Below, in pieces: positions 35,073 to 38,150 of a stretch of 64,000 bases of DNA. Position 1 is the stretch's first letter. Each line of letters begins with the position of its first letter. The notes beneath the pieces were generated by a model. The model ran no database searches. It was not told where the DNA came from and saw only the letters and a list, made by a program, of their open reading frames with translations. The DNA is from Gemmatimonadota bacterium (GTDB lineage: Bacteria > Gemmatimonadota > Gemmatimonadetes > Gemmatimonadales > Gemmatimonadaceae): assembly GCA_028287305.1 (NCBI GenBank), contig JAQBPX010000002.1:310001-374000 (forward strand). Reading direction: 5' to 3'. A program made the position numbers and the translations under genes.

Positions 35073-36803
35073 ATGCCCATCGCATTCCGTGCGCGTTCCC
35101 GCGTGACCCTGGCCGCAAAGGCGTTGCTCCTCGCCGCGGCGGCCGCGTGCGCGAGTGGCCGGCAGACCACGTCGAAGACCGAGGCGAACCTCGTCACCGG
35201 GCGCGGCGTGTATCCGCGCGACTTCGCGGTGCGCAAGCCGCAGACGCGCGCCGAGCGCAGCGGCTTCACCGAGACCAGCCTGCACGCCGACGTGATGATG
35301 TTCCTCGACTCGCTCCAGAAGACCGGCGCGAAGATCAACATCACGACGATGGGCACCACGAGCATGGGCAAGCCGATCCCGCTCGTCATCGCCAGCCGCC
35401 CGCTGGTCAAGACGGCGACCGAGGCGAAGCGCCTCAATCGCCCGATCGTGTACATCCAGGGCAACATCCACGGCGGCGAGGTGGAGGGAAAGGAAGCGGT
35501 GCTCGCACTGCTGCGTGAGCTCACGATGGACAAGAAGCCCAACGTGCTCGACTCGATCGTGCTGCTCGTGGCGCCGATCTACAATGCGGACGGCAACGAC
35601 AAGCTCGGGCCGCAGGCGAGGAATCGCGGTGAGCAGAACGGCCCTGCGATGGTCGGCGAGCGCGCCAACGGACAGGGCCTCGACCTGAACCGCGATTACA
35701 TCAAGGCGGAGGCGCCGGAGACGCGCGCGTCGCTCGCGATGTTCCAGGCGTGGGACCCCGACCTGCTCGTGGACCTGCACACCACCGACGGCAGCTATCA
35801 CGGGTATGCGCTCACCTACTCGCCGCCGCTCAACCCGGCAGCGAAGGTCACGGGACCGTTCCTGCGCGACACTGTGCTGCCCGCGGTGAAGGACCTGGTA
35901 AAGCGCCGCTACAACATGGACATCTTCGACTACGGCAACTTCGAGCCGAACCAGGCCGACCCGAAGAGCTGGAATACCTACGAGGACTACCCGCGCTACG
36001 GCACCAACTATTACGGCGTGCGCGGTCGCGCGGCGATCCTCAGCGAGGCGTACTCCCACGACCCATTCCGCACGCGCGTTGCCGCGACCTACACCTTCCT
36101 CTGGGAGGTGCTGAATGTCGTCGCGTCGAATCCCGAGGACTTCGTGGACGGCTCGCATGAGTCGGACCGTCGCGTGACTGCGTGGGGCACCACGCCGGCG
36201 ACGTCGCCCACCGTTGCGCTGCGTTCGGTGATCGCCTCCAAGCGCAGCCAGGACGTGATCATCGAGGACATCGCCTGCACGCCGGGCGACACCAACATCC
36301 TCGAGCCCGGGACTCGAAGGGGCTGCCGCCGGCAGGGGAAGTTCCGCACGGTGCACATCCCCGTGTACGACCGCTTCAACGCCACGCGCGAGCGGCGCCT
36401 GCCCTACGCCTGGACCTTCGACGCTTCACAGGTGGGACTCGTCGCGCTCCTCGAGCAGCACGGCGTGTTCCTCGAGAAGCTGGATGAGGGCACCTCGCTG
36501 CGGAGCGAGCGCTTCACCATCGATTCGCTGGTGAAGGGACAGGCGTTCCAGAAGCACACTCTCATGCGCCTCGAGGGGCGCTGGCTCGAGACCACTCCGC
36601 CCCTCCCCGGCGGCACGATCGTCGTGCGGGCCGGACAGCCGCTCGGCGTGCTCGCGCAGTACATCCTGGACCCGGAGAGCGATGACGGTGCGGCCAACTG
36701 GAACGTGCTCGACGCCTCGCTCACCCAGGGCGGCATCTACCCGGTGACGCGCGTGCTCGAACCGATTCGCGCTTCCCTCACTCCCCTGCGCCCCATTCGC
36801 TGA
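35073..36803 (+). CDS. M14-family zinc carboxypeptidase, lipoprotein
   Basis: A 576-residue exported metallopeptidase. A lipoprotein signal ends at Cys26 (LAAAAACASG). The M14 zinc site is complete: His133 and Glu136 in NIHGGEVEGKEA and His236 in DLHTTDG; the general base is probably Glu325 in ILSEAYSHD. A beta-sandwich-like C-terminal domain (about 400-576) follows. It likely removes C-terminal residues from peptides in the periplasm. It sits 4 nt before the proline dehydrogenase gene, so released amino acids such as proline might feed that enzyme; this is inference. Confidence 0.9.
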   Translation: MPIAFRARSRVTLAAKALLLAAAAACASGRQTTSKTEANLVTGRGVYPRDFAVRKPQTRAERSGFTETSLHADVMMFLDSLQKTGAKINITTMGTTSMGKPIPLVIASRPLVKTATEAKRLNRPIVYIQGNIHGGEVEGKEAVLALLRELTMDKKPNVLDSIVLLVAPIYNADGNDKLGPQARNRGEQNGPAMVGERANGQGLDLNRDYIKAEAPETRASLAMFQAWDPDLLVDLHTTDGSYHGYALTYSPPLNPAAKVTGPFLRDTVLPAVKDLVKRRYNMDIFDYGNFEPNQADPKSWNTYEDYPRYGTNYYGVRGRAAILSEAYSHDPFRTRVAATYTFLWEVLNVVASNPEDFVDGSHESDRRVTAWGTTPATSPTVALRSVIASKRSQDVIIEDIACTPGDTNILEPGTRRGCRRQGKFRTVHIPVYDRFNATRERRLPYAWTFDASQVGLVALLEQHGVFLEKLDEGTSLRSERFTIDSLVKGQAFQKHTLMRLEGRWLETTPPLPGGTIVVRAGQPLGVLAQYILDPESDDGAANWNVLDASLTQGGIYPVTRVLEPIRASLTPLRPIR

Positions 36804-36807
36804 ACCG

Positions 36808-37743
36808 ATGCTCCGTAACGCGCTCCTGTATCTGTCGAACCAGCCGAAGGTCTTCGCCTTCGTCCGCAACAACAAGCTCGCGAAGTCGTTCGCCAACCGC
36901 TTCGTGGCAGGGGAGACCCTCGCCACGGCGCTCCCGGCGGTGAAGGCGCTCAACCAGAAGGGAATCACCGCCTCACTGGACCTGCTGGGCGAGAGCGTCA
37001 CCAACGAGCAGGAGGCGCGCGAGGCGCGTGACGCCTACCTCGAGATCCTCGACCGCATCCACGCCGAGGGGCTCGACGCGAACGTCAGCGTGAAGCTCAC
37101 GGCCATGGGGATGGACATCTCCGAGGAGCTCTGCATCAGCATCATGCAGGACGTGCTCGGCCGCGCGCAGCAGTACGACACCTTCGTGCGCCTGGACATG
37201 GAGTCGAGCGCGTACACGGACAACACGCTGCGGCTGTTCGAGGACCGGCTCTACCCCTCGTTCAAGAAGAACGTGGGGATCGTGCTGCAGAGCTACCTCT
37301 ATCGCACGCTCGAGGACGTGAAGCGCGCCAACGAGCTGCAGGCGCGCGTGCGCATCTGCAAGGGCGCGTACAAGTAGCCGGCCGCGGTGGAGTATCCCGA
37401 CAAGTAGGACGTGGACGCCAACTACGTGAAGTGCATGCACGAGCTGATGCTGCGCGGCAACTATCCCGGCATCGCTACGCATGACCCGCGCATCATCGCG
37501 GAGGCGAAGCGATTCGCGAAGGAGAACGGGATTTCGCCGGATCGCTACGAGTTCCAGATGCTGTACGGCGTGCGGCGTGACTTGCAGGAGCAGTTGGTGA
37601 AGGAGGGGTACCGGATGCGCGTGTACGTGCCGTATGGCACGCAGTGGTATCCCTACCTGATGCGCCGGCTGGCGGAGCGCCCGGCCAACGTCGCCTTCAT
37701 CACCGGCAACGTGGTGAAGGAGATGGTCGGCGGGCGCCGTTGA
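36808..37743 (+). pseudogene. Proline dehydrogenase (PutA/ProDH barrel) with two in-frame TAG codons
   Basis: The family is clear: FAD-dependent proline oxidation to pyrroline-5-carboxylate on a TIM barrel. The reading frame 36808-37743 holds 309 sense codons plus TAG at 37375-37377 and at 37405-37407. Around them the text reads RVRICKGAYK-TAG-PAAVEYPDK-TAG-DVDANYVKCMHEL, while relatives have Glu at the first place. After the stops the barrel end is well kept (FQMLYGVRRDLQ, GYRMRVYVPYG, WYPYLMRRLAERPANV). Both TAG codons sit in the same eight bases, ACAAGTAG. Possible readings are fresh nonsense mutations, a sequence error, or readthrough. If the stops are real, only a 189-residue fragment is made. 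Confidence 0.8.
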
Positions 37744-37745
37744 TC

Positions 37746-38150
37746 ATGGCAGGCCAGCATCGCCCCGCTGACCATTCGAAGGGCGACGCCAACACCATTG
37801 GCGGCTATCGCGCGGTGCACGACCGGCCGGCGACGTTCGAGGGCAGCGACGGCATGTCGTACTCGGTGGAGCTGATGGTGGACCCGAGCGAGGACGAGGC
37901 GTACGACGGCTACCTGCTGTTCGTGCGCTGGGCGCGCATCGGCGCGGCGAGTCCGGAGGGGCACATCGAGTCGCCGTACCTGGTGCGCGGCGCGAGCGAG
38001 GAAGAGGCGCTGGCGAGACTGGGGTCGCTGCCGCTGTCGGCGGTGCACGAGCAGCTGGAGGAATTGATCATGATGGGCCGTTCGCCTGGCGCGCGCGGCA
38101 CCCGTCGCTGGTTCGATGTCATGAAGGACGAGAAGGACGAGAGTGAATAG
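37746..38150 (+). CDS. Conserved-looking hypothetical protein
   Basis: A 134-residue acidic protein starting at ATG 37746, two bases after the proline dehydrogenase stop. The middle (DGMSYSVELMVDPSEDEAYDGYLLFVRWARIG) looks like a small beta domain, then helices (SEEEALARLGSLPLSAVHEQLEELIMMGR). No motif or signal peptide. It overlaps the rsgA start by 8 bases, so it is part of the same transcript. I do not recognise the family. Confidence 0.75.
   Translation: MAGQHRPADHSKGDANTIGGYRAVHDRPATFEGSDGMSYSVELMVDPSEDEAYDGYLLFVRWARIGAASPEGHIESPYLVRGASEEEALARLGSLPLSAVHEQLEELIMMGRSPGARGTRRWFDVMKDEKDESE

Follow-up and report, generated by a model that had tools for sequence, protein, structure and literature searches.

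In this Gemmatimonadaceae-like genome of a soil-type bacterium, the two in-frame TAG codons in the proline dehydrogenase gene (PRODH) most likely reflect either an error in the local sequence or a mutation of very recent origin, not a new reading of the code. Together with one further severe change, the stops fall within about 31 nt of a gene that is otherwise as well conserved as its intact relatives. The genome lacks amber-decoding machinery, and breaks of this kind are rare in the part of the assembly that was scanned.

A single-copy proline dehydrogenase frame with two internal stops

The window (the whole stretch of 64,000 nucleotides that was analysed) contains a PRODH frame at 36808-37743 on the forward strand in which there are exactly two internal stops, one TAG at codon 190 (37375-37377) and another at codon 200 (37405-37407). 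The frame is unbroken before the first TAG, between the two and after the second, and no frameshift was seen. Its translation matches the Pro_dh domain (PF01619) over most of the protein (residues 42-298, E = 1.1e-42, 147 bits against a cut-off of 27) and falls below the cut-off of the Thermus-type NCBIfam equivalog NF045947 (321 vs 500). The closest solved relatives are 4h6q and 2ekg, and the protein aligns to 4h6q over nearly its full length (4h6q residues 8-311, 266 bits). The alignment and the PF01619 match are common to the window protein and the monofunctional, PutB-type enzymes (solved structures 4h6q/4h6r and 2ekg/2g37), whereas two internal TAG codons and a Glu in place of Ala, all within 11 codons, set the window gene apart.

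This is the single PRODH match in the whole genome (4.37 Mb; completeness 100 and contamination 3 as listed). The original prediction had named a second intact copy, combined with drift in this one, as the outcome that would speak against it; a search of the 4.37 Mb found no second PRODH, and the gene shows no drift outside the affected patch. P5C dehydrogenase, the next enzyme, is intact and scores 750 bits on TIGR01236 (cut-off 613.6; contig C24). In 80 related loci RsgA lies near PRODH in 78 and an M14 peptidase in 57, and a 134-aa open reading frame located here between PRODH and RsgA (37747-38150, forward strand) is found in one of the 80.

Codons 190, 195 and 200 in related genes

PRODH was compared with 109 related loci (29 plus 80, the 80 records being nearly all titled Gemmatimonadota). 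One locus with a gap (L098) was left out of the counts and identical loci were merged, the 109 ungapped loci giving 97 distinct sequences including the window for codon counts, and 96 including the window where sequences had to be complete up to codon 305. Codon 190 encodes Glu (GAG or GAA) in all 96 distinct relatives. Between the two stops, codon 195 (37390-37392) is GAG (Glu) in the window and Ala in 96/96 relatives, a third anomaly that had been missed previously. Codon 200 is a variable position, with Lys in 44 of the 96 relatives, Ala in 20, Arg in 18 and other residues in the remainder; Glu occurs in none, and 75 of the 96 have Lys, Arg, Gln, His, Thr or Ser, encoded by a codon that does not start with G. 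The suggestion of two fresh G-to-T changes is thus at best half right: it suits codon 190, it does not suit codon 200, and it falls short of the change at codon 195.

None of the 96 relatives has a stop at codon 190 or 200, which answers the original call for a comparison with homologues, and PRODH is intact in all four genomes of the genus that matches best (77-79% identity). Six relatives flagged for stops (G017, G095, G118, G112, G097 and G108) have none before codon 306 among the matches listed. A separate search flagged nine matches, seven with a stop at codon 305 or later or past the end of the alignment, one a decayed remnant (G049) and one comprising 26 residues only (G040:C126). A stop-bearing PRODH as a feature shared with relatives was rejected: among the matches listed other than G040:C126, the stops are terminal or belong to the G049 remnant. 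One metagenome-assembled locus (L083, DHJO01000186.1) seemingly loses the PRODH frame near codon 292 (about 292-305), perhaps through sequence error.

The damage is confined to an 11-codon patch

All three anomalies lie in codons 190-200 (37375-37407). Across 146 alignment columns conserved at a level of at least 90%, three differ in the window PRODH, codons 190, 195 and 276; its residues at codons 190 and 195 are absent from all 95 relatives, and its Tyr at codon 276 is shared with eight of them. When the 96 sequences were ranked from the least conserved by mean identity to relatives, the window PRODH was 75th over codons 1-189, third from the lowest over codons 190-200 and 96th over codons 201-305, a segment in which dN/dS is about 0.09-0.21 against seven close relatives. 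Outside the patch, conservation is at least at the level of intact relatives, so selection on PRODH has held to the present there. The earlier description of an intact, well-conserved frame free of old-pseudogene drift therefore stands, and an old pseudogene was rejected given the top rank of codons 201-305, the lack of a frameshift and the absence of scattered stops.

The clustering of the anomalies was noticed after the fact: three of six unseen residues fall within 11 codons (P = 0.05 under random placement), and six of 95 relatives, L083 among them, likewise reach three or more unseen residues within 11 codons. Four neighbouring genes show no comparable patch, their departures being scattered and mostly mild, and the tightest pair consists of two departures in the thiolase, 8 codons apart. 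The window PRODH has premature stops and intact relatives in common with ordinary nonsense pseudogenes and with genes carrying consensus errors in draft assemblies, but differs from them in having no further decay and all of its damage in about 31 nt.

The context shared by the two stops is inherited

As originally noted, both TAG codons sit in an identical context, ACAAGTAG, at 37370-37377 and 37400-37407, and in 400 kb of the contig this sequence is present at these two places only. Among 95 relatives, ACAAG.AG occurs at the first site in 53, at the second in 32 and at both in 25. Because 25 of the 95 carry it at both sites, the repeated context is no extra evidence; it is inherited and offers no clue to mechanism. 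A systematic miscall of ACAAG.AG was rejected, since ACAAGGAG, ACAAGAAG and ACAAGCAG occur unharmed 10, 10 and 17 times, respectively, in 400 kb. Within the window (1-64000) AAGTAG is found 16 times where shuffles predict 3; despite this excess, AAG is outside the eight commonest codons preceding TAG in the 167 TAG-ended open reading frames described below.

No machinery for amber decoding and no signal for readthrough

The original prediction had raised programmed readthrough or amber decoding and had proposed looking for a suppressor tRNA and the pyrrolysine machinery. Neither mark of pyrrolysine recoding was found: all 47 tRNA genes (Rfam) are in loci read by ARAGORN and none in the whole genome has a CUA anticodon, and PylS is absent from the genome, the best match reaching 23.8 bits where the cut-off is 178, and a match appears in 13 of 14 control genomes too. 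An intact RF1 is encoded (477 bits). The 521 non-overlapping open reading frames of 250 aa or more in 1.11 Mb use TAG as terminator in 167 cases, TGA in 299 and TAA in 55, in agreement with the earlier remark that TAG serves as an ordinary stop codon here, and no other gene with an internal TAG was found in the 1.11 Mb scanned. A common terminator, a retained RF1 and the lack of recurrent internal TAG codons in that 1.11 Mb all argue against a genome-wide reassignment of the amber codon. The window PRODH resembles pyrrolysine-containing and other amber-recoded genes in having an in-frame TAG with the frame intact on either side, the one feature favouring dedicated decoding; unlike theirs, its genome has no CUA tRNA, no PylS and no other recoded gene that we found, and has RF1. 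We know of no PRODH described as a pyrrolysine protein. Dedicated amber decoding, by pyrrolysine or a suppressor tRNA, is therefore strongly disfavoured, with a probability that we regard as negligible.

Programmed readthrough fared no better, with a stop in none of the 96 relatives and no stimulatory structure downstream: folding z-scores were +1.61 across the first stop, +1.65 after it and -0.17 after the second, no better than shuffles. No promoter- or terminator-like site was found in 36700-37850.

A scan for internal stops identifies a likely UGA-recoded peroxiredoxin

A coding-potential scan for in-gene stops covered 1.11 Mb (400 kb of contig C16, 440 kb of C4 and 271 kb of C27), with a sensitivity of 577/1563 when one stop is placed at a random internal position. 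In most candidates an ATG follows shortly after the stop, and these were presumed to be a gene end followed by the next gene start; six without a nearby ATG were translated and judged by eye, five being ordinary-looking gene ends and one a PrxQ/BCP-like peroxiredoxin. Besides PRODH this was the one convincing gene with an internal stop, and at the above sensitivity no other broken-looking gene was found in the 1.11 Mb.

The peroxiredoxin (L251; G000:C4:397299-397763, reverse strand) carries TGA in frame at the site of the catalytic Cys (FFYPKDDTSG-TGA-TIEACEFRD). A tRNA-Sec (C30:9680-9771, 73.8 bits, anticodon TCA) and SelB (C32) are encoded in the genome, and in nine compared relatives the site is TGA in two (L253 and L256) and Cys in seven. 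On these sequence features L251 is likely a selenoprotein. A more distant peroxiredoxin relative at G000:C37:1868-2263 (forward strand) has one TGA inside the match, as do many relatives; it is perhaps a second selenoprotein, or the TGA may simply be a terminal stop. In L251, then, likely recoding comes with the machinery present, a codon common to relatives and a catalytic position, and PRODH has none of these.

Discussion

We consider it somewhat better than an even chance that the wrong-looking bases, confined as they are to about 31 nt, represent a local consensus error in the assembly. Purifying selection would have maintained PRODH in the lineage up to the present, and the damage would be limited to about 31 nt in which two places make TAG and one replaces an invariant Ala, the cause being a local burst of consensus errors, for example at a thinly covered spot set by one poor read. 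That the burst was technical rather than biological is what we infer from several features: departures at codons 190 and 195 that no relative shows in a gene otherwise as conserved as intact ones, an intact P5C dehydrogenase partner, no second PRODH to take over, neighbouring genes free of a comparable patch, and no stop in any relative orthologue examined among the matches listed. This reading has to contend with an assembly that looks clean wherever it was scanned (no other broken gene in 1.11 Mb, at a sensitivity of 577/1563), with the unharmed copies of ACAAGGAG and ACAAGAAG, which exclude a systematic miscall of the motif, and with the modest and after-the-fact statistics of the cluster. 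The clean assembly speaks instead for a genuine, very recent inactivation by clustered or few independent mutations, which would make PRODH a fresh pseudogene; we give this a substantial chance, short of even. It is helped by the dispensability of PRODH in the group, but independent neutral hits that follow a first stop should scatter and reach the 3′ part of the gene as well, where in codons 201-305 the window PRODH is instead closest to consensus of all 96 sequences. The packing of three severe changes into about 31 nt points to a single complex event, for which a donor was not found. The 39-nt pattern of the patch, allowing up to 3 mismatches, matches only itself in the genome, and no templated match within 1 kb that spans a changed base exceeds 8 nt, the longest in 400 kb being 13 nt; import of the patch from another locus was rejected on these grounds. 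Weighting a consensus error over a lesion is a judgement, made because three packed severe changes, with none elsewhere, fit one burst better.

PRODH might alternatively be functional, with near-cognate tRNAs decoding its TAG codons inefficiently and little full-length enzyme being made, possibly as regulation. We regard this as improbable. The first TAG is followed by C, and TAG followed by C is a leaky stop context. Constraint also persists 3′ of the stops, a pattern that PMC7918605 takes as a sign of readthrough of in-frame stops in many bacterial genes. However, new or false stops predict a low dN/dS on a long branch just as well, and two serial stops multiply the loss of product. Codon 190 is universally Glu, the invariant codon 195 is changed as well, no examined orthologue shares a stop among the matches listed, and RNA structure at the stops is lacking. 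A specific version, in which both UAG codons are real, fixed in the species and inefficiently translated, so that serial amber readthrough would throttle PRODH and Glu195 would adapt the loop to the residues inserted at positions 190 and 200, seems to us very improbable.

A pair of in-frame stops in a gene under selection can thus mimic recoding, and it was comparison with relatives that exposed the inherited context and the small size of the patch. The UGA-containing peroxiredoxin from the same scan, with its tRNA-Sec and SelB, shows what support for recoding should look like. Among the papers listed in a literature search, titles and abstract openings contain no report of stops in this gene, and the main text of PMC8629427 does not contain the string 'Gemmatimon'. 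Proline dehydrogenase (putB) is present in over half of Gemmatimonadota genomes according to PMC9426454.

Among 179 genomes of the family, four have no PRODH match, two of which are at least 90% complete (G024 and G182). In G049, a more distant relative, the gene is a remnant (L192; G049:C77:29659-29913) in which the start and end are joined, about 220 codons have been lost and a TAG is present, and this genome retains a distant paralogue elsewhere. PRODH can therefore be lost in this group. A fresh loss is plausible because some family genomes have no match and G049 has a remnant only; an intact gene with a local error is plausible too. The product up to the first stop comprises 189 residues and is without the conserved C-terminal third, including a YGVRR stretch that we take to be part of the substrate site. 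If the lesion is real and fresh, the cell would make this truncated protein and its proline catabolism would be off; if the stops are a consensus error, the living cell would have an intact proline dehydrogenase.
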